Source of the DNA: a virus
IMG/VR virus record: IMGVR_UViG_3300042326_001912
Span: 1 to 59,955 of that record
Reading direction: 5' to 3' (one strand)
Length of the DNA: 59,955 bases
This document shows, one piece after another, positions 1 to 24,664 of the stretch (the stretch's first letter is position 1; each line of letters opens with the position of its first letter). Both the position numbers and the translations under genes were made by a program. The notes under the pieces were generated by a model. It saw only the letters and a list, made by a program, of their open reading frames with translations. It was not told the origin of the DNA and did not search any database.

Positions 1-494
1 GGCAGTGCACCATTACAAGTTGAATTTTCATCATAACAATGAGTGTAACAATAATCAATCGGGGTTCCTAAAGGACAATTAATATAATTTCCAGTAGGAT
101 TTAACATTCCACTTGAATCACAATAGTATTGATAACAACACCCACTATAAGTTGTACTTGTTGGTGTTATAGACCCACAATATTTAATTAAATAACAGTA
201 GTCATAACACCCAGGTATGTATTGATTTAGCATTTCCGCATCTGCTAAACACAAAGCATATCTATCTGGACCACTATATGAACCATTAGCAGAAAATTGA
301 CATTCCCAACAATCTGGATTTTGAAATAATTCTACCTTACAGTTTACATTGTATGCAGGTCTAGCTGACTCACAAAGTTGTTGTGTATCAAATTCTGCCA
401 CTCTATTTTCGCAATTTCTAGAGCAAACAAAGCAATCTGGAGTGTTTTCAATTAAACACCATTTATCTAAACAACAGTCGCATGTTTCTGCCAT
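1..494 (-). CDS. Cys-rich protein, 3' end cut by window edge
   Basis: An open frame starts at an ATG at 492-494 and runs off the left edge without a stop (164 codons visible). The product begins MAETCDCCLDKWCLIENTPD and is strongly enriched in Cys and Tyr, with many CC, CxxC and CxYC patterns such as PGCYDYCYLIKYC and SGCCYQYYC. There is no signal peptide or membrane segment. A TAAGG Shine-Dalgarno lies about 10 bases before the ATG. It follows the large hub-like tail gene, whose own C-terminus is Cys-rich, so it probably belongs to the tail-tip or fibre module. I recognise no family. The spacing of Cys suggests either many disulfides in the finished particle or metal binding; the sequence does not decide between them. 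Confidence 0.75.
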   Translation of the reverse strand, partial: MAETCDCCLDKWCLIENTPDCFVCSRNCENRVAEFDTQQLCESARPAYNVNCKVELFQNPDCWECQFSANGSYSGPDRYALCLADAEMLNQYIPGCYDYCYLIKYCGSITPTSTTYSGCCYQYYCDSSGMLNPTGNYINCPLGTPIDYCYTHCYDENSTCNGAL

Positions 495-532
495 TATTAA
501 TTAACCTTAATCTATATGTGCAAATGTTAATT

Positions 533-4387: not shown

Positions 4388-4394
4388 TTTTCAC

Positions 4395-5750
4395 CTAGTT
4401 GTAATTCCAAACTACAGAACGAGTTATTTTACCAGTTTTATAATCATAAGTCACATCATCTTTTTCAAGAAACATATCTGTTGAATTTGGTTTGTAGCTA
4501 TCAACATCTGTCGGAATTTTTATTTTTCCAAGAGAATCAACTGGTTCATTGTATAATACCTCTACATTTACAGTTTTAACACCATTTTTTTTTGTTGTTA
4601 ATTTTTGTATAATTGGACCTTCTGGTTTACCAATTGCTACAATTGAAACAAAATTAATTAAGGGTGGCGTATCTGTCCAAGTAATAGACTTTGTTCTTTC
4701 TCCTGTCTCTTCTATACCTTCAGAAATATCTACAGAAAAGGTTATTACTCCAGATATTTTATTTGTTCCTTCAGAAATAGACTTTACTTTACCAGTTATT
4801 GATCCAATAGTGTATGTCTTACCTATTTCCCAAGGGTTAGCTTTTTTAATTGCTTTTAATTTATCTTCCGCATTAGCATACTTTGTCTTTCCTTCTCCTT
4901 CATATCCAGTTATAGTTCCTTGCAAACTTGCAGATTTATATATAGATTCAGAAGATTCTTTAGTGGTTGTTGTTTGTTCTATTACATATGGATTAGTTGA
5001 TATAATCCAAGATTCATTGCACTCTACACTATTCTTATAAGTATTTACTGAATAACTAGTTGTTTTATTATAAAGCCCACCTGTTGGAACAGTTAAATAT
5101 GTAGAGGCATCTACAATTGAAGTAGATGGTTTTAATTTTTTAATTGCTAAGTTATAATCTATTTCTGTTGGATCTTCAGTTTCTATGCTTTTTACTTGTA
5201 TACTTCTAGTTCTATTTATTTTTACAAATCTTCCATATTCATCTGCTGGATCTAATGACCAAGTTTCATCTGGTTCTTGTGTGTCTAAAACTATCTGCTC
5301 TAAGGATATCGTATAATCGCATATTAAACTTGCTTCGTTAATTTGAAAGTTTTTTGATTTTAATTTAAATTTTTCAGTTAAGTTTGGCAATTGAGATAAA
5401 TTTGGTCCAACTATTGGTGTTGTTATATTTATATTATTTATGTCATGAACTAATACTGATTCTAAATTTGCTATTTTATTTCTGAGTAAACTCAACTTTT
5501 TTTTATCTATATCTAATGGCGTTGCTCCAATTGGTTCTTGTTCTCCTTGTACTGGATCAACAGCTAAAATTTTTCCTTTCAATTCTACTTGCCTTGTGAT
5601 TGTTTTTACTTCCCCATTTTCTTTAAATTCTGATTGTTGACTAATGGTCATTAATGGAGTTGGTATTAATTCCATTTCATTTAATGTCATAGCCATACTA
5701 TTTGGTATTAGTGGTTCTCTAGGCGTATAAAATGGGGAATTTGTAGGCAT
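4395..5750 (-). CDS. tail protein, paralogue A of a tandem pair
   Basis: 451 residues, no recognised family. It is a diverged copy of its upstream neighbour (5763-7142). Matched segments in the same order include SASLQGTITG versus SLSIEGTITG, GPIIQKLTTKKNGVKTVNVE versus GPIFQDINTKKVRTMSVTIE, and a C-terminal GKITRSVVWNYN versus KKISRTTTFMWADD. Both look beta-rich with a repeated 'YTIS/YTIE' strand pattern. An internal Met (MAMTLNEMEL, about residue 18) would align better with the paralogue start, but the first ATG has CAGGAA upstream, so it is kept. It lies 12 bases after the paralogue and 7 before the hub-like gene, implying one operon. Role inferred: distal tail or baseplate-like structural component. 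Confidence 0.7.
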   Translation of the reverse strand: MPTNSPFYTPREPLIPNSMAMTLNEMELIPTPLMTISQQSEFKENGEVKTITRQVELKGKILAVDPVQGEQEPIGATPLDIDKKKLSLLRNKIANLESVLVHDINNINITTPIVGPNLSQLPNLTEKFKLKSKNFQINEASLICDYTISLEQIVLDTQEPDETWSLDPADEYGRFVKINRTRSIQVKSIETEDPTEIDYNLAIKKLKPSTSIVDASTYLTVPTGGLYNKTTSYSVNTYKNSVECNESWIISTNPYVIEQTTTTKESSESIYKSASLQGTITGYEGEGKTKYANAEDKLKAIKKANPWEIGKTYTIGSITGKVKSISEGTNKISGVITFSVDISEGIEETGERTKSITWTDTPPLINFVSIVAIGKPEGPIIQKLTTKKNGVKTVNVEVLYNEPVDSLGKIKIPTDVDSYKPNSTDMFLEKDDVTYDYKTGKITRSVVWNYN

Positions 5751-8206: not shown

Positions 8207-11200
8207 CTAAGCCATTTCATCTGTTATTTGCCTACTTATTTCACTAGTTATCCATCCTTTTAGGGATGTGGTAGCATCTGTTACTGCCATATAAACACTA
8301 TTTACATCAAAACTAACATTTAAAGAAGCATTTAAGTTTCCAATTATTTGTAAGTTTAATGTTCCTGGTATTCTACTTATTGCAGCATTTAATTCATCTG
8401 CATATGTTTTAAATTTTTCTAATGATGAACTAAATCCACTGTTAAATCCTGTTAAGTTTGTACCAAATTGTGTAACTGCATTATTAAATTTGTCTATTGG
8501 TCCTGATCCTATTTTTATTTCAGTTTTTAATATTCTTGAAAGTTCTTCAAAACTAGACTTTGCTATGTTTATTTGATTGTTATTGTTAGAACCGCCATCA
8601 GGCCTGTTCATTCTTGATATAGCAGCATCAAATCTTGATGTTCCATTATTAAATGTTATTGCAGCTTGCAAAAGTAAGCTAGATGTTTTTCCTCCACCAC
8701 CTGTTTTTCCTCCAGCATAATAACCAACAGTACCACCATTTGCAAAGCCTTCAACATCTTTTCCAGTATTTATTGCGTGTAACAAAGATGCGTTCTTAGA
8801 TGATGATCTTGCGTTAACGACAAACTCACCTGGAGTTAACATGGCTGGAATAGTGTCAGAACTAGATGTTGGCATTCCACCTTTAAAAAAGTATAATTCT
8901 TCATTGGCCATAGCATCCTGTTGTTCTTGTAATGCTGCCATCTTGGCTTTTAACTGTTCTATTTCCCCTATACTTTGTGTTTGTGTTGTTGTTGCTGCAC
9001 CTGTGGTATCTGGTTTCTTATCTTTTGGATCTGGTGGAGTTGTTGTTGTTTGTTGAGTAGGTGGGCGTAATGGCATAGTCATTTGTTGTTGCGATTTTTG
9101 TTTTTTTTGTGCTTGTGCTTCAATTTTTGCTATTTGTATTGGTTTAGTTTCTATTGCATATGAACCAACCTCTTGTGGTCCTTCACCATAGTTTCCTGCA
9201 TCTCCAATTCTTTCTACGCCTCTTTTTTTATTAGCATCTGATCCCTTAAAGAAATTAAATCCAAGTTGCTTTTCAAGATTTTTACTAAGAGCTTCATTTC
9301 TACTATTTCTCTGTGCATCTCCTGCTTTAAGATTCATTTCATATATCTGCTGCTGATCACCAGATTGAATTGCTTCCATCATTCCTTTTTGAGTAATGCC
9401 AGCATTTTTTAATCGCTTGTTAAAGCTAGTTGCATTGTCTCCATAAGCAAGATATTCTATTAAACCACCAGTGGCAGAATACCCAACATCTTGCCCACTA
9501 TTTATCGCACTTAATAAATCGCCATGTTTGGCAGTAGCACCAGCATTTATTACAAACTCACCAGGGGATAACATAGCGGGTACTGTATCTGTACCTTTAG
9601 GCTTAAAGTAAGATGGATTAGGATTTGGTCTATATGATGGAACATTACCGCCAGTTGCTCTATATATAGGTATTTGACTATTTTGTGTCGCAAACCTTGT
9701 TGGGTCAAAACCAACTGGTGTTGGTGCAGTAGGAGGTTCTAATAAAAGATTATTTTGTTGTATTAATGAATCATAATAATCTTCCATTTTCTTTGCATTT
9801 TGAACTGACACAGATAAAGCTTTAGTATCTACTTCTGCATCATTTTTTAATTTAGCAACAGACTTTACATACTCTGGAGATCCTTCTGTTTGTTCTCCAA
9901 ATTTATAAAAATTAGCGATCTTTGCTAAAAGTTCTGGATACCTATTTAACTTATATGTGTATGGTTCTTCAATAGGAAAATAAGTACTTATTTCTCTTAT
10001 GCTATAATCTAATTTTTGAGCATTTGGATCTCTTGTAAAATATTTAAATGAAGATGCTAGAAGATTATTTCCATATTGAGCTTCTTTTTCTCCTTCATAT
10101 AAGCTTTGATCGGTATTAACTATTTTATCTGAATCTTGTCCTACAATAAGTTCTTTTGATTTTTGTCTATAAAGAGTGTTTTTAAGTTCTACAAAGTTTT
10201 TAAATAAATCTACTGTGTCGTTTTGAAATTCATCTCTAGTAGGAACTCTTTGACCAACATTAAATCTAGGGTTTTCAATTTTATTTAAATTTTTAACATC
10301 TCTTCTTGTTGTTTTTGTTTCTTTTGCTTCTATTGCTTTTGCATTTTGTTTTTCTTTTTGTATTTGTTTAATTTGTTGTGCTGGATCTCCATTTGGATCA
10401 AAAGTATTAACATTTTGATTAGGATTAGCTTGAACATTTGCTGATGGGCCTTTAAGATCAACGCTTGGCGTTCCTTTGATTTGTTTTGATATTTCCACTA
10501 GTTGTTGATATGTATTTTTATTTTCTAATAATGCAATTTTTGCTTGTCTTTCAAATGTTGTTTTTCCTTCAGCGTCTTGTTTTGGGAAAGAATTTACTTT
10601 AAACAAACCGCCATCTTTTTCTAATCCTAAAACAACATCGTCTTTTACTGTAGGAAAATTTAAGTATCCATAATTGCTAATGCTTGCTGTTGCTCCAAGA
10701 TCCGTAAGTAAATTGTTATTGATGCCATTTTTAGAAGATGCCAATTTCTTAATATCTTCTATGCTTTGTGGTGGAATAGCAGTTCTAAAATTAGTTGTAT
10801 TAAAGTCTACTTCCGTAGGGTCTTTTGCACCAAAATCTACATTCCCTAATCCTTTATCATCTATATTTCCTTTTAATTTTCCAAACTTTGTAAAAGACTT
10901 AATGTTTTTTTCAGATTTTTCTTCTAAAACACCAAGCAAACCTTTTCCTTTTTTTATTTGATTTCTATTTGCAAATACTTTATTGGCTTTAGCTTCTCTA
11001 TCTAAAAACATCAAAGCTTCAAATATGCCTTGTGCTTGTGCAGTTATAAATTCTGGATCACCGCTAATATCAGATCTTTTTTCTTTTGCCTTTATTAATT
11101 TTTCAATTAAAACTTGTGGATCTTTATTTATGGCTTTTCCATATGTTTCTATATATGAATCCATTTCTGGACCTTTTGAAGTTGCAGCACTTTCAAAAGA

Positions 11201-14200
11201 GTTCATAGTTATAAATGAACCAACTATTTTCTTTTGTCCTGGTGATATATTTGATAGTGATTTTTTATCTATAGCTGTTTCTTGTCCATTTATTAATTTT
11301 TGAAGTTCTTTTTGTCCAGTTGCAAAAGAAACTTTAGGATCAATTTTTTCTAAATTTATATTTGGATCATTTTGTATCAACTTCATTTTTCCAATAATAG
11401 CCTGTGCCTGTGCCTCTCTTTGCAAATATATTTTTGCTATAGCTTCTGGACTTCCTTTTCTTCTAAAGAAATAATTGTCTTCTTTTGCACCCTTTTCTTT
11501 AATAAATTTATCTACATTTTGTGCTCCTACTTCATTAATTGATCCGCTATTTACATAGTCACCTTGAATGCCTGACTCTTTAAGTTTTGTTTTTTGTTTT
11601 TCTATATCTTTTGTTTTTGCAATAACACCTTGTTTATCTAAAACATTTGAAGTGTCTAATTTTCCTGATGTGTCTTTTTTAAACTGCCCTTCTTTTTCAT
11701 TTTTTAATTTTTGTTGTTCATCTATTATTTTTTGTCTTTCTTCTGCTTTTCTTTTGTCAAATTGTTTTCTTGCGTTAGCAACATCTTGCGTATAATCCAT
11801 CTGTTCTGGATCACCTTTTTGTTTTACTCCTAATGCAAAATCAACATAATCTTTAGATGAAGTTTCCACTTCTTTTTGTTTTTTACCAAGTTTAGTGGTT
11901 GGAAAAAAATTGTCAAATTCTGAATAAGTGGGCGTTAGATTTAATATTCCACCAGATAATATACTAAGTCCTCCACCAAGAGCATTTGTTAGTGATTTTT
12001 TTGCAGCTATTTTATTTTTAAGTTTTTCTTTTTGACTTTCAAAACTATTTATTCCAGTATTCCTTGATGATGCATCCTTTTCTGCTTGTTTATTAAAAAA
12101 ATCTAAAATAGATGCTGTTGGATTTTTTAGTTCAAGATCATAAGCAAAGTCATTATGATTGTATAGTCCATCAATACCCAATTCTTTTATATCTTTTCTT
12201 TCTTTAATAAAATCATTTGCTGATGTTGTAAAGTTTTTACTGTATATTTTACTTATATTTTCTTTTTCATTACTATTTGAAATAGCTTTATTTATAGTTG
12301 AAGTTAATCCTCTAAAAGAACCAAAAATCACATTTGATTCTTTTAAATAATCGTTATTTGTTTTATCTTTTTGTAGTTTAAATGCTTTAGATTCTAAATC
12401 TCCAGAAAAACTATTTACTTGCAAATATTTTGTCTTAGTAGCGTTTTTATATTCATCACTTTCAATAAATTCTTGATTGTAATTAAGTGGTTTATTTTCA
12501 ACAGGAGTAGCACCATCTTCATAATACCCAACTTTTCCACCACCACTAAGATAAGATGTTTTTCCACTATTTATAGATTGTAATAATGGTAGATTTTGTT
12601 GTGTAGCACTTCTATTTACTACAAATTCTCCTGGTGTCAACATTGCAGGAACTGTATCTGTACCCCTTGGTTTAAATACTGAACCACCAACAGCAAAAGC
12701 TGAAACTTGAGGTTTGGCTTCTGCATTTGGCAATTGTTGAATTCCACCAAGTCCATTTATAGCTTCATTTAAAGCTTTTATTCTTGCTTCAGCACCTATT
12801 GCAGCAGTAGATAATCCTTCACCAACTCCAAGTTGAAGTTCTTTAACGCTAGCTAAAGCTCTATCGAATTGAACAAATGATATTTCATTACCAGCTAATT
12901 TTTGTACTAAACTATTTAATTTTTCTTCAATTCCAGAAGCTTTAAAATTATCTTGTATTTTTGTTTGTTGTGCATTAAGTTCATCCCCTCTTTGTTGCTG
13001 AAATTGTTCTTTTGCCAATCTTAACGAATCACTTGCATTATTTCCCTCAGAAAGTTTTTCTTGCGTAATTTCTCTTATTTTTGTAGCTTCACTTGCTTTA
13101 TATCCACCTTGTTTTACTAAATCGCTCTCAATATCAGTAGTATTAGTAATTACATTATTATCATCTGTTTTTATACGAGTCCTAATAGACTTAGAATTTG
13201 CTTCGGCTAATCTTTTTTGTTCTTGTTTGTTTTTTGCTAAATCTTCAACTTGTCCTTTATATGTATTTAATTTTTCAAAATCTTCTTTAGTATTAAATCC
13301 AGATTCACCTAAAAACTTGCCTTCTTTTTGAACATCTTTAATCTGTGCTGCTTTTTGTTGTTCTTTTCCTTTTTCTGCTATTAATGTGTTCTTCTGCATC
13401 TCTTGAATAAACTTTTGCAACTCAGAATAAAACTTTTCATTTCTTGAATCTAAATTACTAAAATAGTCTTGTTGCAATGATTGCTGATTAGCTATTATCT
13501 GTCTTTGTGCCTCTTCTTGTTGGGCAAAAATTCTAGCTTGTTCTGCAACGAGAGCTTTTTCTTCTGCCTTATCATCTTTGCCAGCACCATAACCATTAGC
13601 ATCAAGTATTTGGTCTTGTATTTTTTTTCCAGCAGCACCAAAATTATCTAGAAAATCAAAAAGAATAGCATTTTGCTCAGTACTCATACCTTGAAGACTG
13701 CCACCTCTAGCTTGTACTTGATTAAATACTGCCTGTCCTTGCAACATTTTTTGTTGTTCTTCTGGACTTTGAGTTAATAATCTTCTTCCTAAAGTTCTTT
13801 TTTCATCTATATTTTGTCTAACTTGTGCAAGTTTAGCTTGTGCTGCTTCTAGTTTCTTTGATTGATCAGTAAGGTTTTTTAATGCATCATTTAAATTAGA
13901 TGCTTGAGATTTTAATTTTGTTAGTTCTAATGCTGCATTTCTAAATTCTGCACCACCATTTGTAGACTTGTTTGTATTTAATACTTTCTCTTCTTGAACT
14001 CTTATTTGTTGTTGCGTGTTTTTTAATCTAGAAGCTATGGCAGCAGGATTTTCTGCTGCACCAGCACCAAAACCAGTTAGTCTTTGTTGTTGTTCAGAAA
14101 AATCATTTCTTGCACCTTGCAAGTTTATGTTTTCTGCTACTCCTTGTTGTGCCCCAGGAAGTCTTTGTATTTCATTGGCTGCAAAAGATCTAGACCTACT

Positions 14201-17200
14201 TCTTAACTCAGAAAGTCTTCCTATTTGATCACCAATAGCCTTTTGTCTTTTTGCTAAATCCTCAAGGCCACTTATGTATTTATTTCCAGCTTCAGTTAAT
14301 TTATTATCTATTTCGGTAAATGCACTTATGAGTGGATCACGAATGTCAGATAATAATTTTTGGGTTGCCTTAGAAACATCGCCACCAGCTTCAGCTAACA
14401 ATTTAGTAAAGTCTTCTGATGATACTTTTCCACCAACAGAACTTACTACTTGATCAGCAGCAGCACCTGTTATTCCTCTTGCTTTTAACCCTTCTTTTAA
14501 TGCATCAGTTATTTGTGTTGCTGTTTCTTTACCAGATATTGGATTAGCTACAGATTGTGCAAGAATGTCTGGTAAAATTTGACTTGCTGCATTTACTGCA
14601 TTACCTTGACTCTTAAACTCTTGTCCATAAGCACCTAATAATCCAGCAGATTCAGTTATTGCCATATTAAATTTTGCAAAATCGGGAGTTGATCCACCGC
14701 TTCTTTCTGCAAAAGAAGTTAGCTTTGTTGATCCAATTGAACCTTCAAATAATGATGAATTTGTATCTAACTTTGATGAAAAAGAATCGGCAGATGCAGC
14801 AGCAGCATTAACTGCATTGCTAAGTGACTGCATTGAATTTATAGCCCTTGCATTTTCTTGTACTGCTTTAGTAGTTACAGACTTTATTTTTTCTGCTTGG
14901 AAAGACTCTTGCAGTGTTTTTATAAATTGTTTTTCTGCATCTGCAATGCTAATATCTTGAGCAGAAGCAATCTTAGCTATTTGTTCGGCCCCTGCACCGC
15001 CACCAGAAGACCTCAAATCTTTAAGTAATCCACCCTTGATATCTTCAAAATTTGTTGTAGATATATCTCCACCGCCAGATTTTATTTTAAGTGCTGCATC
15101 TTTACCTATTTGTTCACTATATTTATTTAAAACATTAGTTAATGGCCCTATTTGTGCAGCGTTAGTTTCTTTTGAAGATTTGGATAATGCTTCATTGTAC
15201 TTTTTTTGATTTACATCAGTTCCAGTTAGTCCAAAACTAATAGTGTTTAAGGCTTTCATAAAACGACTATTGTTGCCACCAGATTCTTCATATGCTTTTG
15301 TAGCGTTTTCTTGACTAACAACTTTTTGATTTTCAGATATTTTTCTTAGTGTAGAATCATTTACTTCAAGCAAGCCATTTGATACTCTTTCAAATATATT
15401 TTGCAAATTATTTAATGCTTGAGCAATCTTTGCTTCTCTTATTTCTGCTTCTGCTTGTTTTATTCCATTATGATAGCCTTCAAATGCACCAACTATTCCA
15501 GCTAATCCAGCACCTACACCAGCAACAACTAGACCATATTTAGCTAATGATTGACCAGCAACAGCAGCATATGTACTTGCTGAACTTAGTGCTGCACCAA
15601 AAGCTTGTGCTGATTTAAAACTAGAAGCTGCACCTTCATCTACTTTTACAGTATCTCCTTCGCCCTTAGAAACTATTCCCGCTACTGTTCCACCAGAAGA
15701 CTTAATTCTTTCACTTAAAAAACTAGCTCCAACGGCAGCAGTAGTTAGTCTGTTAGCTAAAGTACTTCCTCTTGATTCTTTAAACTGTTGATCCCCTTCT
15801 GATCCAGCTTCAAAGTCAGTTCTTTTTGCACCAAAAATTGCTCTAGAAGCAAAGTCTTTTACTTTACCTTTAGAAGTTAAATCGCCTTCGGCAGTATAAT
15901 CAGTATTTGTTTTTCCTCTTCTTGCATTACCAGTAAGATCTCCAGCTAAAGATCTATCTCCAATAATTTCTCCTTGTTTATTATAATTAGCTTTTCTTTT
16001 TCCTTCAGAAAATTCCCTAGTGTATTGATCAGCAGTAGCTTGAAGATTTAATTCGCTTATTGGTTTACCACTTTGTACTGCTTTTGCTCTAAGTTGTTTT
16101 TCTGATGCCGTTCTATATTCAGAAAGTGCATCACCTTTTAATGTTTCTCTTTCGTTTTTTCCTGCTTTTCTACCTGTTTGTTTTTCGTAATCTGCTTCTT
16201 TTCTTTTTAATATATTTTCCATTGAGCCACGACCAGAAAGTGGCTTTGTTTCTCCAATTACTTTTCCAGCAAGCAAAACTTTTCCTGCTGCATCTTGTTG
16301 ATATTCATCTAATAGTTGTGCTGATCCTTCAGCCTTTAGTGTTGCTGCCTCAAGACCTTGTACTGCGGTTGTTGCTGCATTTTCGGCTCTAGTTAAATTC
16401 CTTACTTCTTGTCCATGCGTAACTAATAATCCATTAAGTGTGTTTGTATTAGCAACAACTTGATTGTTAGCAGAAATTGCGTTCCTTGTTGCTCTAGCTT
16501 GTAAATTTCTAGCAGTTGCTTCCGCAGTAGTAGCTGCTATCAAAGCAGCATTAGCAGCAATCAATCTAGGGTCAGTTGCTGATGCACCCCTAGCAGTTAA
16601 AGATGTTATTCTTGCTTGCTGTCTTGTGGCTTCTTGTCGATTAGATGCAACTAATCCTCTTTGTGTGTTTGCCTCATCAATATATGAGTCTCTTGCTGTA
16701 GTAGCAGATTGAACATTTGATCTTGCAGCATTAACATTTTGTTGTGAAGCACCAACCCTTCCTCTTTGTCTAGCAACCAATGCATTTCTACTATTAACAG
16801 TTGTTTCTGCTTGTTGTCTTGCATTTTCATCTGATGTATATTGCTGTGCTCTTCTTTGTATTTCATCTGTATTTTGTTTAACTTCTATTTGTACAGTATT
16901 TTCATCTTTGTTTGGGTCTTCATACCTTAATTGTTCTTCAAGAGTTTCTTTTAATTTTTTAATATCATCTGGATTATTTGGATCAAACTTACCGCTTCTT
17001 CCAAGACCAATAGGTCCACCCCTAGCAAATTTGGCAAACTTATTCATTGCATGTAATTTTGAAGATCCAATTTTACTTGCTTCTTCTGGACTATATACAT
17101 ATTCACCAGGAGTTAGTAACGCAGGAACAATACCACCATTGGCGAATCTTGAGGCTTTTGCTAAATTATCTGCCCCTATCTTATTAACTGAAGACTTTCT

Positions 17201-20200
17201 AATTACAAAAGAGCCTTCGGGCAAATCCATAGGAACAGTGTCAGAATTGCCAGTTCCTGGTACTAATCCACCAGATGCAAAACGACTTACTTTTTTAGAT
17301 CTGGACTGAGCATTAATGCTATCTAATAGTTTTTGATATTCAGATTCTTGTGCATTATAAAAATTGCTTTGTTGTGCAGAACTGGCAGTATTTTTTTTCG
17401 CCCTTGGTTTTTTTGGTTTACCATAGGGATTATAGGAATCTTCTGGAATTTGTGGTGATGGTGCTCTAGTTGAAGTAGTTGTTATTGGCTCTGAAACAAC
17501 TGGCTTTGTTTTTCGAGTTTTAGCTACTTTATTTTTTTCTGCAAGTAAGTAGAAACCAATTTTGTTTGGATCTCCTACTACTTTTCCTTGATCTTGTAAG
17601 CTTGCAAGTGCTTTATTAATAGATTCGTTATCACCTACTTTTTCCCTAAGTGTTTTCCAGAATTCACTTTGTTTACCAGCTAAAGCCTTAAGAATTACAC
17701 TTTCAACAGCAGAATTTCTATTTGTTGCTTGTGCAGCAATTGATGCTGGTGCTGGTGCTGGTGCTACTGCTTGTGCCTGTGATACGATTGGCTTTCCAGT
17801 TCCCTTAGACCTTAAACTCATTAAGTTATCTGCCAAATTTTCATTAGCTATTGCTCTTCTTTGTTGTCTTGGATTTAAGTTAAATTTAACTCTAGCACTT
17901 TCACTTGCTGCATCCCTAAATCTCTTTATCTTATCAGCATTGTCTTTAAACTTCTGTTCTTGTGTTTGATATGTACCTATTTTAGAAAGTTCGCTTTCAT
18001 CAAATAAGGTTTTTTCTTGTCTTGGTGCAGATTGTGTTCTTGCTAATTTATATCTTTCACTTTCTGTTTTTTTAACTCTTGGTTCTTTTTTAGTTTTTTG
18101 GTTTTTTGCTATTCCAATAATTGGGCCTTGAAATTCCCTTTCTTCCATTTGCATTCTTAATTTTTGTGCTTGTGGCGATGTTCCACTAATAGGTTGAATT
18201 GCTTTATAGTTTTCATTTATTCCAATTAGATTTTCTGGCTCTACGCTTTCTGTTGAATTAGGCAGTCCTCTTCCTTCTCTTCGCTGTCTATCTAAAGCTA
18301 ATTTTTTTTGTAACTCTTTATATTGATCTGAACCCTCAAATACTTTTGTATCTCTAGCGATTCCGTAAAATTTATTTTGTTGATTTTCTTCATCTATTGA
18401 TGAAATTAAAGAACTTAATCCTGATGCCGTTTCTGATTTTTGTCTTGATTTATCTATATTCTCAGCTTTTTTTCTAGCGTTTCTTTCTGTGGCTATTCTT
18501 AATTCTTCAGTGCGTTTTTCTTTTCTTGTTTTTGGTTTCCAAGGAAATGAAGCAATACTTCCAAATTTTATCACATCTTTTTCTAGCTGTATATTTAATG
18601 GGCCACGCTTATCGCCAAAATCATAAGCAAACTTAAGGTCTTTAATATTTTTTGTTCCTAGAAACTTATCTTGTGCTCTACCAATTTTTGCTCTTAGTTC
18701 TTCTGAATAATTTGGTGGTATTTTAGAAAGAAGCTCATCTAAAGATTTAACTCCTTTTAAGTCATATGTTGGTTTTCCATCTTTTGATTTTGCACTTCCT
18801 TTGTCTGCAAGATCTTTATTTGGTATCATATTAAATTTTGTACCAAGAAAATTAAATCCAACAGACTTTAATTTCATTGATCCAGATGTTCTTGCATTTA
18901 CTATTATTTGTTTAGCTGATTTTATTTTTTCTTTAAAATCTGCCAATTGTTTTGGGTTTAATCCTTTAGAAAATTCTTCAAAGCTTTGTGGCTTTGCAGT
19001 AGCCTTATCGCCATCAGCAAACATTTGTCTGCCTACATTTCCACCAAAAGCATATCTTTTAGTTTCTTTTGAGTCTGCAAAAAGAGCACCAAAATTAACC
19101 CTATTAGATGAATCACTTGGATTTAAAAGAGACATTTTTTCAGCTAGAACTTCTGGATTATCTCCATAAGCATCTTGCATCATTCTTTTAAGAACATCAA
19201 TTTCTATATCTTTATGTCTACCACCCAATACTCCTGCTGTTGGTATCTCAGAACCTTTTTGCATTGAATCAGCAAGTGTTCCATGAGCTTCACTTTTATA
19301 AAGTTTTGCCATTTTCTCTGAAGAAATAAACTCTTTCAAAGAGTTAATTTTATCTTTTTGTTTTGCAGACTGAATAGTATGTGCTTGCATTTCAGAAATA
19401 AGAGTCGTTTCACCGCTTCCTTTGCCATATGCCCCCATACGCCTACCAATAGATCCAAAAAGAGAATTTGCTAAAGGAGAACCTTCTTTTGAAGCCCCAT
19501 AAGCAGCAGCATGAGCACCTAATTCATGTCTTGTTGTGGTTTTTTTACCACTATAATTAACTAATAGATTTTTCTCATAATCAAAATTTCCATCCTCAAA
19601 CGAATTTGTTCTGGCTTTTTCTTGGGCTGAAGGCAATGCTTTTGCTGCTGCCAACAATCTCATATTGGCTGGCAATTTATTAAGTTTGTCGTATTTATTA
19701 GCTGATTCTACATCATTATTTTTAAGTGCTTCTTGGTACAACCTTTGATATTCAACGGCTCTTTTAAACTGAGATGCTTTTCTGGAACCAACAAACATTT
19801 CTGAAAATTGTTCAAAATGAGGGGATGTGTGATCCATGTTTGGGAATTTTTCATATTCCTTTGGTTGTCTTTTGAATATAATTCTTGGGGTGTCCTGCAA
19901 TGCAGACTTTAACTTCATGCCAGGATTAAATGAATTATCGAGAAAAGCTTTACGATGAGTTACTTCTTCACCTTCCATAAATCTCTGTCTATTAACCGAT
20001 CCACCAGTATTTTTTGGTACTCTTATTATTTTTTTATTTTTTGAAAATGCGGTTATTCCAAAATTTTGATTGCCTTCTTCTTTGTCATGAAACTTATTGA
20101 TTAAATTGTTAATATTAGCAAACGCTGGTTCTAAAGAATTAGAAACCTGTGGATCAATATCATATTTTTGATCTGCATTTATTGAATTAATTAATATTGA

Positions 20201-22291
20201 CTTTGCATTTTTTATATTTTCTTTTTTACTAAAAAATTCTTTTAAGTCTTTTGTTGTATATAAACTTGATGTTGATCCTTTTCCTTGGAATGTCTTAAAA
20301 ACATTTCTTTTTTGAATGTAATTCTGAAGCGTTTTTCCTTTAACAAAAATATGGTTTGGTTGTTTATTCCAATCTAAATTCCAATTGCTCGGTAAATCTA
20401 TACCAATATTTGAATAATGTTTTGTTTGTGTCGTTTGTCCACTTGCATCTTTAATTTCATAAGTATACCCTAAATCACCATGAGTAAAATGAGTTTCTTT
20501 TTTAGCTTTATTTGATTTATTTTTTTTCTTTTTAGCTAAATATTCTGAAACTTGTTTTTCATCATCAACATCTATATTTTCACTTCCAGGAATTTTTTTA
20601 GACAACCATTCAGATACAGAAATCTTGCGTGTGTTTTGTGGCAAATCCAATGTTGAAAATAAATTTTGCCCTTCTTTGTTTTTTAATCTTTGTCTTCCTT
20701 TTATTGTTGCACTTTTTACTTCTCCAGCATTTCCTGGCATGTTTTCTTGATTGTACTTTTGTCTTACAACTTGATTTCTAGGCACAACCAACTCACCTGG
20801 CTCAAGCAAAGCTGGCACTTTATCTCCAGTTCCACTTCCAGGAACTATGCCACCTTTTTGCATCCTAAGAAAACCACCATCTGCTTTTCTAGCTGACCCT
20901 GTCTTTTTAATAGATGAAGTATCTGCACCAGCACCTTTTACAAAACCTGTGGCAAAAGAGCCAAGTCCTTGACCAATTTTTACGGCAGCAAGGGCAGTAA
21001 ATAATGGGAGTAAACCTTTAAGTGAATTGATTAATGACAAAACAGAAGTGGCAGCACCAATGAATGTATCAGCTAAACTTCTAAAGCCGGGGCTATTAAC
21101 AATACTTCTACCAACCTCAAAAAAGCTTTCCTTCAACTTCTGTAGTTTTACAGCAAGAGCATCCTGTGCTTGACCAGCATTAACAGCTAAAGACACACTA
21201 CCAGCTTGAGCTATACCCAATGCCTTCTGTGCAGTAGCAAATTCTTGAATAAGTGGGATAACCTTACTGATCTGCCTATAACCACCTAATTGCTCAACAA
21301 TGGCACTAAATCGGGGGTCTGTTGACCTTAGTTCAGAAAGTCCAGCAGATAATCTTTTGACTGCTTCATATGGACCAACAAACTGCTGTTCTAATCCAAC
21401 ATCTCCTAAAGCTCTAGCCTCTTCTGCTGTATACCTAAGATTTATACCAACTTCTTTTAGGGCGTTAGCCGTATCATTTCTTTGTATTCGTGTAAATATA
21501 GTTCGCAAACCAGTACCAATACTTTCGGCACTTTCTCTTGTCGTTTGTCGTACTGATGTAAATAAAGCTATAAGTTCATTTAATTGACCACCAGCAGCTT
21601 TAAATGCACCCCCTGTCTTTCTAATCGCCTCAATAATGTCTGATGCTTCAACAGCAAACTCACCCGCTACAGCATTAACAGAACCTAAAGCTGCACCAAG
21701 GTCTTTTGCCTCAACCTTAAACTGCTTCATAATAGCAATAGCACCTTCAGTCGTATCTTTGAGGTTATCAAAGTTTGGTGCTAAAGCAGCTTGTGCCATT
21801 GCTTCTAAGGCATCTTTAGTTTCAGAAAGAGTTAAGTTAGCTTGTTTTAAAACTACTGCTACGCCAATCAAATCCTTGCTAGAAACACCTAAATTTTTAG
21901 ATAAATTTGTTACTTGATCACCTACAGCAGCAACATCTTGTACTGTGTCTGAAGAAACTTGTCTTAATCTAATCATTTCTCTATCAAAATCTACGGCAGC
22001 AGAAACGGCTTCTTTCATTGTGTTAGTAAAAGCAATGATTGAGCCAGCAGTAACGGCAAATGCAGCAAACCTTTTGGCAGCAAAGCCAGCTTGTCTACCA
22101 AAGTTCTCCATAGAATCAGTAGCTTCAGAAATTTGAGACTTTATTTGCCCCAATCCAGAAGAACTATTTCTATCAATACCAAGCTTTATTTGCGTGTTTG
22201 TATTTAATGCTGAATTTATCTGACTTGAAGCATTTCTCAAAGAAGCACTATTGAGAGCAATATTCAATTGAGCAGTTAAATTAAAAGCCAT
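8207..22291 (-). CDS. giant tape-measure protein (4,694 aa)
   Basis: Sets tail length by spanning the tail tube and is usually involved in DNA ejection. The N-terminal ~450 residues match the TP901-type tape-measure domain: Ala-rich helices (GRQAGFAAKRFAAFAVTAGS), 'NLSKNLGVSSKDLIGVAVVL', 'SIGTGLRTIFTRIQR' and 'VEQLGGYRQISKVIPLIQEF'. The remainder is mostly helical and coiled coil (very Gln/Ala/Arg-rich near 1805-1990), with a hydrophobic Gly/Ala segment near 2225-2275. Six Gly-rich insertions carry a (T)DTVPAMLTPGEFVVN-type motif near residues 485, 1680, 1725, 3210, 4235 and 4480. At the usual ~0.15 nm per residue the tail would be near 0.7 micrometres. Start: GAGGTATAAAAATG. A terminator lies just upstream, so a promoter of its own or readthrough is needed. 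It occupies about a quarter of the window, among the largest tape measures I know of. Confidence 0.93.
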   Translation of the reverse strand: MAFNLTAQLNIALNSASLRNASSQINSALNTNTQIKLGIDRNSSSGLGQIKSQISEATDSMENFGRQAGFAAKRFAAFAVTAGSIIAFTNTMKEAVSAAVDFDREMIRLRQVSSDTVQDVAAVGDQVTNLSKNLGVSSKDLIGVAVVLKQANLTLSETKDALEAMAQAALAPNFDNLKDTTEGAIAIMKQFKVEAKDLGAALGSVNAVAGEFAVEASDIIEAIRKTGGAFKAAGGQLNELIALFTSVRQTTRESAESIGTGLRTIFTRIQRNDTANALKEVGINLRYTAEEARALGDVGLEQQFVGPYEAVKRLSAGLSELRSTDPRFSAIVEQLGGYRQISKVIPLIQEFATAQKALGIAQAGSVSLAVNAGQAQDALAVKLQKLKESFFEVGRSIVNSPGFRSLADTFIGAATSVLSLINSLKGLLPLFTALAAVKIGQGLGSFATGFVKGAGADTSSIKKTGSARKADGGFLRMQKGGIVPGSGTGDKVPALLEPGELVVPRNQVVRQKYNQENMPGNAGEVKSATIKGRQRLKNKEGQNLFSTLDLPQNTRKISVSEWLSKKIPGSENIDVDDEKQVSEYLAKKKKNKSNKAKKETHFTHGDLGYTYEIKDASGQTTQTKHYSNIGIDLPSNWNLDWNKQPNHIFVKGKTLQNYIQKRNVFKTFQGKGSTSSLYTTKDLKEFFSKKENIKNAKSILINSINADQKYDIDPQVSNSLEPAFANINNLINKFHDKEEGNQNFGITAFSKNKKIIRVPKNTGGSVNRQRFMEGEEVTHRKAFLDNSFNPGMKLKSALQDTPRIIFKRQPKEYEKFPNMDHTSPHFEQFSEMFVGSRKASQFKRAVEYQRLYQEALKNNDVESANKYDKLNKLPANMRLLAAAKALPSAQEKARTNSFEDGNFDYEKNLLVNYSGKKTTTRHELGAHAAAYGASKEGSPLANSLFGSIGRRMGAYGKGSGETTLISEMQAHTIQSAKQKDKINSLKEFISSEKMAKLYKSEAHGTLADSMQKGSEIPTAGVLGGRHKDIEIDVLKRMMQDAYGDNPEVLAEKMSLLNPSDSSNRVNFGALFADSKETKRYAFGGNVGRQMFADGDKATAKPQSFEEFSKGLNPKQLADFKEKIKSAKQIIVNARTSGSMKLKSVGFNFLGTKFNMIPNKDLADKGSAKSKDGKPTYDLKGVKSLDELLSKIPPNYSEELRAKIGRAQDKFLGTKNIKDLKFAYDFGDKRGPLNIQLEKDVIKFGSIASFPWKPKTRKEKRTEELRIATERNARKKAENIDKSRQKSETASGLSSLISSIDEENQQNKFYGIARDTKVFEGSDQYKELQKKLALDRQRREGRGLPNSTESVEPENLIGINENYKAIQPISGTSPQAQKLRMQMEEREFQGPIIGIAKNQKTKKEPRVKKTESERYKLARTQSAPRQEKTLFDESELSKIGTYQTQEQKFKDNADKIKRFRDAASESARVKFNLNPRQQRRAIANENLADNLMSLRSKGTGKPIVSQAQAVAPAPAPASIAAQATNRNSAVESVILKALAGKQSEFWKTLREKVGDNESINKALASLQDQGKVVGDPNKIGFYLLAEKNKVAKTRKTKPVVSEPITTTSTRAPSPQIPEDSYNPYGKPKKPRAKKNTASSAQQSNFYNAQESEYQKLLDSINAQSRSKKVSRFASGGLVPGTGNSDTVPMDLPEGSFVIRKSSVNKIGADNLAKASRFANGGIVPALLTPGEYVYSPEEASKIGSSKLHAMNKFAKFARGGPIGLGRSGKFDPNNPDDIKKLKETLEEQLRYEDPNKDENTVQIEVKQNTDEIQRRAQQYTSDENARQQAETTVNSRNALVARQRGRVGASQQNVNAARSNVQSATTARDSYIDEANTQRGLVASNRQEATRQQARITSLTARGASATDPRLIAANAALIAATTAEATARNLQARATRNAISANNQVVANTNTLNGLLVTHGQEVRNLTRAENAATTAVQGLEAATLKAEGSAQLLDEYQQDAAGKVLLAGKVIGETKPLSGRGSMENILKRKEADYEKQTGRKAGKNERETLKGDALSEYRTASEKQLRAKAVQSGKPISELNLQATADQYTREFSEGKRKANYNKQGEIIGDRSLAGDLTGNARRGKTNTDYTAEGDLTSKGKVKDFASRAIFGAKRTDFEAGSEGDQQFKESRGSTLANRLTTAAVGASFLSERIKSSGGTVAGIVSKGEGDTVKVDEGAASSFKSAQAFGAALSSASTYAAVAGQSLAKYGLVVAGVGAGLAGIVGAFEGYHNGIKQAEAEIREAKIAQALNNLQNIFERVSNGLLEVNDSTLRKISENQKVVSQENATKAYEESGGNNSRFMKALNTISFGLTGTDVNQKKYNEALSKSSKETNAAQIGPLTNVLNKYSEQIGKDAALKIKSGGGDISTTNFEDIKGGLLKDLRSSGGGAGAEQIAKIASAQDISIADAEKQFIKTLQESFQAEKIKSVTTKAVQENARAINSMQSLSNAVNAAAASADSFSSKLDTNSSLFEGSIGSTKLTSFAERSGGSTPDFAKFNMAITESAGLLGAYGQEFKSQGNAVNAASQILPDILAQSVANPISGKETATQITDALKEGLKARGITGAAADQVVSSVGGKVSSEDFTKLLAEAGGDVSKATQKLLSDIRDPLISAFTEIDNKLTEAGNKYISGLEDLAKRQKAIGDQIGRLSELRSRSRSFAANEIQRLPGAQQGVAENINLQGARNDFSEQQQRLTGFGAGAAENPAAIASRLKNTQQQIRVQEEKVLNTNKSTNGGAEFRNAALELTKLKSQASNLNDALKNLTDQSKKLEAAQAKLAQVRQNIDEKRTLGRRLLTQSPEEQQKMLQGQAVFNQVQARGGSLQGMSTEQNAILFDFLDNFGAAGKKIQDQILDANGYGAGKDDKAEEKALVAEQARIFAQQEEAQRQIIANQQSLQQDYFSNLDSRNEKFYSELQKFIQEMQKNTLIAEKGKEQQKAAQIKDVQKEGKFLGESGFNTKEDFEKLNTYKGQVEDLAKNKQEQKRLAEANSKSIRTRIKTDDNNVITNTTDIESDLVKQGGYKASEATKIREITQEKLSEGNNASDSLRLAKEQFQQQRGDELNAQQTKIQDNFKASGIEEKLNSLVQKLAGNEISFVQFDRALASVKELQLGVGEGLSTAAIGAEARIKALNEAINGLGGIQQLPNAEAKPQVSAFAVGGSVFKPRGTDTVPAMLTPGEFVVNRSATQQNLPLLQSINSGKTSYLSGGGKVGYYEDGATPVENKPLNYNQEFIESDEYKNATKTKYLQVNSFSGDLESKAFKLQKDKTNNDYLKESNVIFGSFRGLTSTINKAISNSNEKENISKIYSKNFTTSANDFIKERKDIKELGIDGLYNHNDFAYDLELKNPTASILDFFNKQAEKDASSRNTGINSFESQKEKLKNKIAAKKSLTNALGGGLSILSGGILNLTPTYSEFDNFFPTTKLGKKQKEVETSSKDYVDFALGVKQKGDPEQMDYTQDVANARKQFDKRKAEERQKIIDEQQKLKNEKEGQFKKDTSGKLDTSNVLDKQGVIAKTKDIEKQKTKLKESGIQGDYVNSGSINEVGAQNVDKFIKEKGAKEDNYFFRRKGSPEAIAKIYLQREAQAQAIIGKMKLIQNDPNINLEKIDPKVSFATGQKELQKLINGQETAIDKKSLSNISPGQKKIVGSFITMNSFESAATSKGPEMDSYIETYGKAINKDPQVLIEKLIKAKEKRSDISGDPEFITAQAQGIFEALMFLDREAKANKVFANRNQIKKGKGLLGVLEEKSEKNIKSFTKFGKLKGNIDDKGLGNVDFGAKDPTEVDFNTTNFRTAIPPQSIEDIKKLASSKNGINNNLLTDLGATASISNYGYLNFPTVKDDVVLGLEKDGGLFKVNSFPKQDAEGKTTFERQAKIALLENKNTYQQLVEISKQIKGTPSVDLKGPSANVQANPNQNVNTFDPNGDPAQQIKQIQKEKQNAKAIEAKETKTTRRDVKNLNKIENPRFNVGQRVPTRDEFQNDTVDLFKNFVELKNTLYRQKSKELIVGQDSDKIVNTDQSLYEGEKEAQYGNNLLASSFKYFTRDPNAQKLDYSIREISTYFPIEEPYTYKLNRYPELLAKIANFYKFGEQTEGSPEYVKSVAKLKNDAEVDTKALSVSVQNAKKMEDYYDSLIQQNNLLLEPPTAPTPVGFDPTRFATQNSQIPIYRATGGNVPSYRPNPNPSYFKPKGTDTVPAMLSPGEFVINAGATAKHGDLLSAINSGQDVGYSATGGLIEYLAYGDNATSFNKRLKNAGITQKGMMEAIQSGDQQQIYEMNLKAGDAQRNSRNEALSKNLEKQLGFNFFKGSDANKKRGVERIGDAGNYGEGPQEVGSYAIETKPIQIAKIEAQAQKKQKSQQQMTMPLRPPTQQTTTTPPDPKDKKPDTTGAATTTQTQSIGEIEQLKAKMAALQEQQDAMANEELYFFKGGMPTSSSDTIPAMLTPGEFVVNARSSSKNASLLHAINTGKDVEGFANGGTVGYYAGGKTGGGGKTSSLLLQAAITFNNGTSRFDAAISRMNRPDGGSNNNNQINIAKSSFEELSRILKTEIKIGSGPIDKFNNAVTQFGTNLTGFNSGFSSSLEKFKTYADELNAAISRIPGTLNLQIIGNLNASLNVSFDVNSVYMAVTDATTSLKGWITSEISRQITDEMA

Positions 22292-22305
22292 TTTTATACC
22301 TCAAT

Positions 22306-22355
22306 AAAAAAGGGCAGAGCATAAGCGTAGTTACTTCTACGATTAAACCCTGCCC
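22306..22355 (-). terminator. hairpin terminator before the tape measure
   Basis: On the coding strand GGGCAG (22350-22355) pairs with CTGCCC (22312-22317), with an inner stem CGTAG/CTACG (22337-22341 with 22326-22330), followed directly by a run of six T (complement of 22306-22311). This has the form of a rho-independent terminator. It lies between the last chaperone-like gene and the tape-measure start, so it may lower readthrough into the giant gene. Confidence 0.7.
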
Positions 22356-22375
22356 ATCTATGCGATACTGTCCGT

Positions 22376-23248
22376 TTAGTTCTCAACGACCTTTGCTGGT
22401 TCAACAACAACTGCTGGTGCTTCTGTTGTTTTAACAGCTTCAACTTTTTCTTGAATCGGCTTGCCTTCGTCATCAAGGAATGGAGAGAAGTCAACAACAT
22501 AATCTCCTTCCTCGTTAACTCGATTGCCGTTAATATCAATGAGTTCACCAGCCTCATTAATATACCTACCATCCTTATTGACTAGCCTACCCTCAGAATC
22601 AATCCTTCGGCCTGTCTTATCAACTAAATGCAACTCTTCATCCACAAAGTTATATTTAGATAAAAACTGGTTCTCAGGGAGCTTCTTTTCATAATCTGGA
22701 TCAAGATTATAAAGCAACATAGCAAGACTTCCTGCTGCCTGTCCAGTTGCTGGATCGTCATCTCTATTTAAGTAATCTTCATAATTACTAAAATATGTTT
22801 TCCCTGTCTCTGAATACACCGTACACGAACTAACCCAGTAATTGAATTGGGCATTATCTGCTTGACCTTCAGCAGTATTATTATCTAGAGATGATCGCTC
22901 AGAGGTTAAAGCCCTAAGTTCCGCACGATCTTTCCTCATTTCAAGAGCTAAGTCCTTAGCCTGATTGAGTTTAATACCGCCAGACTTAATCTTTCTTTCT
23001 GCCCCATTAATTTTTTCCAATAATTTGCGATATTCAGCTTCTTTGTTATCATCCCAAAGATTCTGCTCTCGCATAACATTATTGACTTTACCACGAAGAA
23101 TTGCTCCAGATTCGACAGCATCTCTAAATGCTTTATTGTAAATCTTTTGCCCTTCTTGCCTTTGCTTAACATTAGGTCGAACAACACAAAGTTCGATTTC
23201 TTTGCTATCCAAAGTTACCTTAAACTGCTTCTTATTTGTGACACTCAT
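22376..23248 (-). CDS. tail assembly chaperone-like protein with C-terminal repeats
   Basis: 290 residues. The N-terminal half contains a 'MREQNLWDDNKEAEYRKLLE' segment resembling 'NNVWDEEKEKQI' in 23618-24664, followed in both by charged helices. Residues ~205-255 hold a short tandem repeat of about 8-12 residues (DKTGRRIDSEGRLVN, KDGRYINEAGELID, INGNRVNEEGDYV). The C-terminus is acidic then Ala/Val/Pro-rich. It begins after AAAAGGAGGATTAGTT, one of the strongest Shine-Dalgarno sites here. Genes just upstream of the tape measure usually encode tail assembly chaperones, and this is the main reason for the call; no family is firmly recognised. The classic ribosomal frameshift product is not evident. 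Confidence 0.55.
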   Translation of the reverse strand: MSVTNKKQFKVTLDSKEIELCVVRPNVKQRQEGQKIYNKAFRDAVESGAILRGKVNNVMREQNLWDDNKEAEYRKLLEKINGAERKIKSGGIKLNQAKDLALEMRKDRAELRALTSERSSLDNNTAEGQADNAQFNYWVSSCTVYSETGKTYFSNYEDYLNRDDDPATGQAAGSLAMLLYNLDPDYEKKLPENQFLSKYNFVDEELHLVDKTGRRIDSEGRLVNKDGRYINEAGELIDINGNRVNEEGDYVVDFSPFLDDEGKPIQEKVEAVKTTEAPAVVVEPAKVVEN

Positions 23249-23250
23249 AA

Positions 23251-23616
23251 CTAATCCTCCTTTTGCTTAAGAATATTCTGGTGTCTGTTCCAATAAACAA
23301 TATACTGCATTATCTCATTTTCGCAAGATCTAATTTGATGATTACCATTGTTCAAAACATTTGTTCTACACAGATCCCATAGTTCCCTCCACTTTCTTTG
23401 TTTGTCAGTTAAATCAGCTTCACTTATTCCATATCCCCAAATCTCTCCGAAGTTTTGTTCAAAAGAAGAAAGAGCACCAATAAATGATGTTCTTAGCTTA
23501 GTAGTTATAATTTTTTGCAATCTTGCTTTTGATTCAGTCTCATACTTTTTCCTGTTTCTTTCTTCATCCTTTTTAGAAAAGTTAGAAGCATCTTCCATTT
23601 GTGAATATATGTCCAT
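23251..23616 (-). CDS. small charged protein in the tail chaperone cluster
   Basis: I start it at the ATG at 23614-23616 (MDIYSQMEDASNFSKKDEER, 121 residues), because GGAGG sits 8 bases upstream; an in-frame ATG 18 bases earlier has no such site and would overlap the previous gene. The first ~45 residues are charged and helical (KKDEERNRKKYETESKARLQ), followed by a part with several Trp (EIWGYGIS, RKWRELWDLC, YWNRHQN). It lies 1 base after 23618-24664 and 2 bases before 22376-23248. Function unknown; position between two chaperone-like genes suggests tail tube or tape-measure assembly. Confidence 0.65.
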   Translation of the reverse strand: MDIYSQMEDASNFSKKDEERNRKKYETESKARLQKIITTKLRTSFIGALSSFEQNFGEIWGYGISEADLTDKQRKWRELWDLCRTNVLNNGNHQIRSCENEIMQYIVYWNRHQNILKQKED

Positions 23617-23617
23617 T

Positions 23618-24664
23618 TTACTTACCTCCAGCATTCATTTGCATTTGAATATCCCTTATGGAGTCGGGCATATTTTCTTCTGCAAGAGTGCCATGTTTTT
23701 TTAGAGCTTGTGATCTTTCTTTCTTAATCATCCTTGCATTCATATCATTTAAAGATTCTATCTTCTTAGCATCTTCCTTGCTTTCTGCAATTATAAATAT
23801 TTCTTTGCTGTTTCTTATTTTGTCATTTGATAGTAATCCATCTATTCCAGTTTCTACTCCTTTTTTAACCCTTTTTCTTCTTTGCAAAATCAACCATCCA
23901 TCAAGCATATCATCATCTTCTAAAACTTCTTCTGATGGTGATTCTGGATGCTCATATATATTATCATAGAGTGATGACCAAATGATAACGCTTTTTTGTT
24001 CTTCTGTTAAATCTACAGCAGGAACACCAAATAAGCTCCCCTCAGACTTTTTACATGACCATGTAGATCGCCAAGGATCTGTTCTTGCTATTTCTCTAAA
24101 TTCAGAATCAGATATTTTATTTTCAACAAATACCGAAGTGGCATCTTCTAAAAGTGGTTCTGTCTGCTTCCAAAAATCATCGCCTTCCCAAACTCTAGTT
24201 CCATCTTCAAATAAAAGCCCTTTACCAACTAAATACCTCATTTTATTCATAGAGGAAATGCCCTCACATGATAAATGATTATATGCATTTTTTTCTCTGT
24301 ATAGTTCAGAGAATGATTGCTTTGCTATTTTTAACATTTTTCTAATTATTTTTCGTTCTTCTGTTTTAAATGTGGCTTCAAATAGTCTTACTTTTAATTC
24401 CTCAATATCTTTTGGCATTTGAACGATTTGTTTTTCTTTTTCTTCATCCCATACATTATTGCTATACATGAAGAATTCTAATTCTTCTTGATTGTATAGA
24501 CCTTCTAATTCTGCTTCTTCAAATGATTCTATGAATATTTCTTGAGCGATGTGGCGAGTGTGGCGATCTGGCTGTTTAAGCAAATAGACTTTTCCGTTGA
24601 TTTTACAACGAAAAAATCCAGTAATAATTCTACTAATATATAATTCCTTCTTAAACTGATCCAT
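23618..24664 (-). CDS. putative tail assembly chaperone
   Basis: 348 residues, starting MDQFKKELYISRIITGFFRC. Charged and mostly helical, with 'FMYSNNVWDEEKEKQI' near residue 65-80 that recalls the 'QNLWDDNKEAEYRK' segment of 22376-23248, which hints at common ancestry. A Trp-containing region near 200 (TDPWRSTWSCKKSEGSLFGV) and an acidic linker (PSEEVLEDDDMLDGW) follow, then a basic helical C-terminus. It is the first gene after the probable major tail protein and its terminator, so it is expected at lower expression than the tube protein. The role is inferred from gene order. Confidence 0.5.
   Translation of the reverse strand: MDQFKKELYISRIITGFFRCKINGKVYLLKQPDRHTRHIAQEIFIESFEEAELEGLYNQEELEFFMYSNNVWDEEKEKQIVQMPKDIEELKVRLFEATFKTEERKIIRKMLKIAKQSFSELYREKNAYNHLSCEGISSMNKMRYLVGKGLLFEDGTRVWEGDDFWKQTEPLLEDATSVFVENKISDSEFREIARTDPWRSTWSCKKSEGSLFGVPAVDLTEEQKSVIIWSSLYDNIYEHPESPSEEVLEDDDMLDGWLILQRRKRVKKGVETGIDGLLSNDKIRNSKEIFIIAESKEDAKKIESLNDMNARMIKKERSQALKKHGTLAEENMPDSIRDIQMQMNAGGK

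Follow-up and report, generated by a model that had tools for sequence, protein, structure and literature searches.

Six copies of one motif in the giant tape measure protein (TMP) of an uncultivated virus genome mark joints between interchangeable modules of that protein; the stretch analysed, hereafter the window, is a virus contig of 59,955 bases and may be a fragment. TMPs lie inside the phage tail and set its length. The motif, with consensus F-A-x-G-G-x-V-x-G...D-T-V-P-A-M-L-T-P-G-E-F-V-x-[N/K]...L..(I/M)-N, recurs in the TMPs of very distant phages, is kept by selection on the protein and sits where related TMPs part from each other.

All six copies are carried by a single ORF (Table 1), which is a TMP as judged from its matches to PhageMin_Tail (PF10145, E = 4e-23) and to PHROG 28 (phrog_28, 'tail length tape measure protein', E = 4e-22). 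It stands in a long series of large ORFs, all on one strand, at the end of which there is a weak match to a terminase. The 4694 aa of this TMP and the about 5600 aa of that of a relative (L008, 9673-26532), taken at 0.15 nm per residue, would correspond to very long tails of about 700-840 nm, unless what lies between motifs adds nothing to the length; TMPs of only 1500-3600 aa are found in several relatives that are complete and have a related N-terminus. Upstream of the TMP, a 92-aa ORF (22294-22572, -) overlaps the 3' end of ORF 22376-23248 (-), an arrangement that recalls frameshifted tail chaperone pairs, but a pair of this kind was discarded, no in-frame slippery heptamer being found there. 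No clear relationship is seen between ORF 22376-23248 and ORF 23618-24664. Elsewhere the window encodes two collagen-like repeat proteins (46016-51427 and 43791-46016, -; Collagen E = 8e-141 over 19 stretches and E = 4e-25), a 1202-aa protein (30937-34545, -) that matches the plant STIG1 family in ten strong stretches (E = 1e-79) and may be a repeat protein rich in cysteine to which the family name attaches by resemblance, and a family 2 glycosyltransferase (28057-29856, -; E = 8e-11) among structural-type ORFs.

A motif profile (HMM) built from the window copies and their relatives finds exactly six matches in the TMP, at E = 8e-11 to 4e-19, starting where the copies of Table 1 start (cores at aa 498, 1692, 1728, 3220, 4243 and 4487), and scores no more than 1.8 bits on 200 shuffled versions of the protein. 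Likewise, the core pattern P[AM]xLxxG[ES][FYL]V occurs six times in the TMP and not once in 2000 shuffles. The six PGEFVVN-type copies placed in the TMP by the first-pass annotation are all confirmed, within one ORF, and so is the 'L..IN[ST]G' tail that it read in copies 4-6 (SINSGK, AINSGQ and AINTGK), whereas the GG(I/L/S)V said to precede each copy holds for copies 1-4 only (GGIV, GGLV, GGIV and GGSV), copy 5 having GGNV about 15 aa further upstream and copy 6 having GGMP.

Table 1. Features of the tape measure gene, in order from the N-terminus of the protein; coordinates are those of the window.
Feature	Residues (aa)	Coordinates	Strand	Basis
Giant TMP ORF	1-4694	8207-22291	-	ORF and family matches
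PhageMin_Tail domain, conserved N-terminal block	125-335	21287-21919	-	profile match
End of conserved helical hairpin, hydrophobic stretch directly upstream of copy 1	405-456	20924-21079	-	
Motif copy 1, GGIVPGSGTGDKVPALLEPGELVVPR; homology with most relatives ends here	480-519	20735-20854	-	
Segment 2, orphan; replaced or rearranged in relatives	521-1670	17282-20731	-	
Motif copy 2, conserved doublet, first half	1674-1713	17153-17272	-	motif HMM
Motif copy 3, conserved doublet, second half	1717-1752	17036-17143	-	motif HMM
Segment 3, rich in helix formers, rod-like by composition	1776-3190	12722-16966	-	composition
Motif copy 4, conserved island; flanks unalignable in L008 and L009	3202-3241	12569-12688	-	
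Segment 4, orphan	3251-4205	9677-12541	-	homology search
Motif copy 5, conserved island	4229-4264	9500-9607	-	
Motif copy 6, conserved island	4475-4508	8768-8869	-	
C-terminal segment, expected tail-tip plug	4531-4694	8210-8701	-	analogy

Copies 2 and 3 are a doublet, 43 aa apart. From copy to copy, the steps are 1194, 43, 1485, 1027 and 246 aa in the window and 489, 1210, 44, 1432, 1086, 575 and 140 aa in L008, whose TMP has eight copies versus six; a doublet with a 40-44 aa step was met seven times, of which four were in close relatives of the window. Conservation in relatives, named beforehand as the point on which the motif should be judged, is thus found for the residues and not for the spacing, save for the doublet. 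A fixed spacing or a tube-ring periodicity was rejected, for close relatives differ in spacing, and a residue subtype tied to the first or last position appears as a weak trend only. Nor is there a hydrophobic segment before every copy: the tendency is confined to first copies (median upstream peak 1.30 versus 0.74 at random positions) and does not extend to later ones. In the window, the hydrophobic stretch that ends the hairpin has a Kyte-Doolittle peak of 1.58.

The motif is not confined to the window: 186 copies were collected in 87 ORFs, at 1-8 per ORF, in a set made up nearly entirely of viral contigs. The motif is present in TMPs of Mycobacterium, Gordonia, Pseudomonas, Nodularia and Brevundimonas phages and, more weakly, in that of lambda. 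With a window copy as query, 213 of 50,697 phage records were matched, nearly all of those among the matches listed being annotated as TMPs; the versions of the motif in phages JBD30 and lambda matched 414 and 1031 records, respectively. In their N-terminal parts, up to 59 of 77 motif ORFs match a TMP family. The 80 motif loci under comparison were selected by the motif pattern, so that the conservation of P-A-x-L-x-x-G-E-x-V among them is partly built in. Independent of that choice are the PHROG family matches: one-copy cyanophage proteins match, along the motif, about a dozen families that mostly bear the name tape measure, and the matched part is often no more than about 120 aa from the family C-terminus. 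Given this wide spread, and since neither Pfam nor NCBIfam places a model on the motif and none of the literal motif strings tested is printed in the literature searched, it is regarded on sequence grounds as a real, widespread and apparently unnamed element.

That the motif marks joints between TMP modules is seen in where homology between relatives stops and where it persists. In L006, a relative that is otherwise 98-99% identical, the TMP is 98.9% identical to that of the window over aa 1-505, its homology stops inside copy 1 and returns at aa 762, and, further along, aa 1495-1670 are absent and 98% identity resumes exactly at copy 2. In L008 and L009 the motifs stand as islands of 51-90 codons with 76-87% DNA identity; for copies 4 and 5, whose flanks were profiled, identity drops to background on either side. 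The copies correspond by position between relatives. Within these islands dS is 0.45-0.67 and dN 0.07-0.19, hence selection acts on the motif protein. Over 25 TMPs, including that of the window, the hairpin and copy 1 align and the sequence beyond is mostly unrelated; 55% of the 543 N-terminal HSPs end between -10 and +40 aa from the end of copy 1. Internal HSP ends fall at motifs in 37% of cases versus 8% (sd 2%) with shifted motif positions, a 4.5-fold excess drawn from pairs that are not independent and dominated by the first copy, and short TMP-TMP alignments run from motif to motif in 1929 of 2013 cases, partly due to the choice of loci. Along the same line, the alignment of the lambda and HK97 TMPs ends at lambda 737, in the FATGG of the lambda copy. 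Because swaps and deletions end at copies, islands persist and homology stops after copy 1, the motif is taken as a joint between interchangeable modules.

As for its structure, AF2, given 145 copies, predicts an extended core with moderate confidence and short helices after it (pTM 0.36), with no fold match in the PDB, and a self-folding mini-domain was rejected on that account. Predicted for aa 340-600 from 25 rows, a long helical hairpin leads to copy 1 in a low-confidence linker. Among solved structures, the motif matches by sequence the TMP gp16 of mycobacteriophage Douge (8zdo), with two copies at 973-1011 and 1413-1459 (together E = 1e-8), and, weakly, Chi (8vjh); the Douge copies are not resolved, only 1658-1699 being modelled (PMC13033339), so that the motif has no solved structure there. 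An explanation as a plain flexible hinge, placed between rod segments, kept for flexibility only and with neither partner nor protease, would suit an element that is Gly/Pro-rich, predicted as coil with low confidence and placed between modules. Of the roles first proposed for the motif, that of a hinge, or more broadly a joint, is supported by the position of copies at module exchange points and of copy 1 in the predicted linker. However, D, P-A, L, G-E-V and N are kept across very distant phages, under purifying selection at dS about 0.5, and a mere hinge would keep composition and not sequence, which makes the plain hinge rather unlikely.

The known systems point to a more specific role. 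In phage JBD30, the C-terminal 'hook' of the TMP gp46 (residues 1022-1066), itself a prediction, is predicted to anchor the TMP in the baseplate once the C-terminal domain leaves (PMC11445458). Judged by profile (E = 0.004 for 100,000 sequences) and by tblastn against Gordonia TMPs (E = 6e-8), this hook is the PGEFV motif. It is a proposed holder of the TMP in the baseplate and lies about 140 aa from the C-terminus, yet it is present once in a TMP of 1158 aa, as against six times along 4694 aa in the window, and was published for one phage as a prediction and not as a family; moreover, the predicted cut after 1066 falls after the motif and not before A-x-G-G (PMC11445458). The TMP of T5, pb2, is cut after R1127, a single and experimentally mapped site; docking to the opened hub is by the 42-43 residues that precede the cut, and the muralytic domain and the plug lie in the part beyond it (PMC10038345). 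Like the motif, the T5 site (SFVPR/AEGGMMYPGVSYQMGEHGTEVV) has A-x-G-G and, after it, GE..E.V; it lies about 92 aa before the C-terminus and occupies the same place, between a hydrophobic stretch and the muralytic/plug part. Since the PGEFV core is absent from pb2, which has no match to the motif HMM, T5 is to be seen as an analogue in place and logic and not as a proven homolog.

Lambda gpH is cleaved as well, to gpH* (PMC10038345, PMC3224144), and its C-terminal helix 818-842 is nevertheless found in the virion (PMC10721106), like the cut fragment of T5. It carries FATGG...GEFVFTKEATSRIGVGNL (RGEFVFTKEATSRIGVGNL) at 733-771, after a hydrophobic segment and 120 aa from the C-terminus, as a single copy with a divergent upstream half; the match to the motif profile is weak (12.4 bits, E = 0.5 for 100,000 sequences; with lambda added to the model, 15.8 bits), the likeness being clear by eye and by position. 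A cut at F733/ATGG would leave a computed 79.8 kDa, close to the size of gpH* (about 78-79 kDa). In the homologous TMPs of lambda and HK97 (L093 143-2704; L096 1-2705), the same place is held by a PGEFV-type and a GEAGPEAIMPL-type sequence, respectively. Homology between the two types is not supported (hhalign probability 2%, not profile-homologous), and they seem, from their sequences, to fill one slot without detectable relationship.

A strong copy is also found in virion lysozyme proteins of T4-like cyanophages (S-SCSM1 gp159, Bellamy gp12), which are contractile-tailed phages and have the motif mid-protein (800-950 aa); unlike in the window, the motif protein of S-SCSM1 is a separate gene beside the annotated TMP. 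A glucosaminidase lies C-terminal of the motif in S-SCSM1, and domain searches found M23 in five and GH19 in one of 125 downstream segments, versus a muralytic domain in one of 77 upstream segments; recognisable cell-wall enzymes thus tend to lie C-terminal of the motif, an excess that is small and counted on small numbers. In the window, no phage homologs were found for segments 2 and 4, nor any homologs of segment 2 outside near-identical contigs. Segment 2 contains RHELGAHAAA at aa 921 (TTTRHELGAHAAAYGA, 19511-19531 (-), aa 921-927), which resembles a metallopeptidase site; HELGAH was dismissed as such, its spacing being HExxxH and not HExxH. In L061, the segment after copy 1 (about 10139-11488) contains VWGPAGSGKTTLSR, a Walker A-like P-loop that suggests an unusual cargo.

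On account of the JBD30 hook, the T5 site, lambda gpH* and the cell-wall enzymes after the motif, the favoured reading, which comes somewhat short of probable, is that of a docking/processing joint at the tail hub. For this virus, recognition, docking and cleavage, and a like action of all six copies, are what I infer. The joint would be an exposed Gly-rich linker whose core, D.VPA.L.PGE.V, is conserved and extended, and after which a short helix follows. Joints would lie between the N-terminal block, which includes the hydrophobic hairpin, the rod and cargo segments of the interior and a plug at the C-terminus, a role expected for the last segment of the window TMP by analogy with T5, lambda and JBD30 (PMC10038345, PMC10721106, PMC11445458). 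The tail tip would recognise the joint during assembly or ejection, and the joint would either be cleaved close to A-x-G-G or be kept in place by the opened hub, a hub partner being suggested by the predicted JBD30 hook and by T5 pb2*. The downstream part (cell-wall enzyme, plug or other cargo) would then be free to leave, while the upstream part would stay docked and open its membrane channel; that each joint may dock or be processed at the tail tip would be the likely reason for the six copies of this giant TMP, whose release or docking would then go in steps. For the cutting role proposed at first, the cleavage of T5 at the equivalent R/AEGG and that of lambda gpH, which has the core, would speak indirectly in favour, and the absence of PGEFV in T5 against. 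Docking at the hub alone hardly accounts for internal copies far from the tail tip. A bolder and rather doubtful extension is that giant environmental TMPs resemble polyproteins, with processing or docking at each of their PGEFV joints, modules (channel, rod, cargo, plug) delivered in a set order and phages evolving by swaps of the modules between joints.

Binding to a tail assembly chaperone or to the tube lumen would agree with the coating of TMPs by chaperones during assembly (PMC9022992) and with the Douge copies, which lie in an unmodelled TMP part expected in the lumen (PMC13033339). However, a copy number of 1-8 and an irregular spacing do not match a regular coating or periodic ring contacts, and the genes at 22376-24664, earlier put forward as chaperone-like partners, have no informative family match, nothing being found that points to them; such binding is therefore improbable. 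Likewise, the motif might be a recombination anchor, the shared DNA of the joint permitting swaps of TMP modules and its conservation being a by-product, as swaps and deletions ending at motifs in 98%-identical genomes would suggest. Yet synonymous sites have diverged (dS 0.45-0.67) and the protein is kept, and the motif protein is common to actinophages and to this virus of 36% GC, so it is not in the DNA that identity is maintained, and the anchor is improbable too. A trimer clasp, by which every joint would keep the three chains of the TMP in register, draws on the trimeric state of TMPs (PMC13033339, PMC10038345) and on the positional correspondence of copies between relatives, but is the least probable reading, the monomer prediction being an extended core and short helices with no fold match.

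To sum up, few phage proteins are as large, or as little understood, as TMPs, the lumen part of which is unresolved in the structures examined. The motif can serve in practice to split TMPs into domains and predicts places of processing in lambda and others; it also joins lambda gpH*, T5 pb2*, the JBD30 hook and the cyanophage tail lysozymes, which would otherwise be considered apart, into one question.
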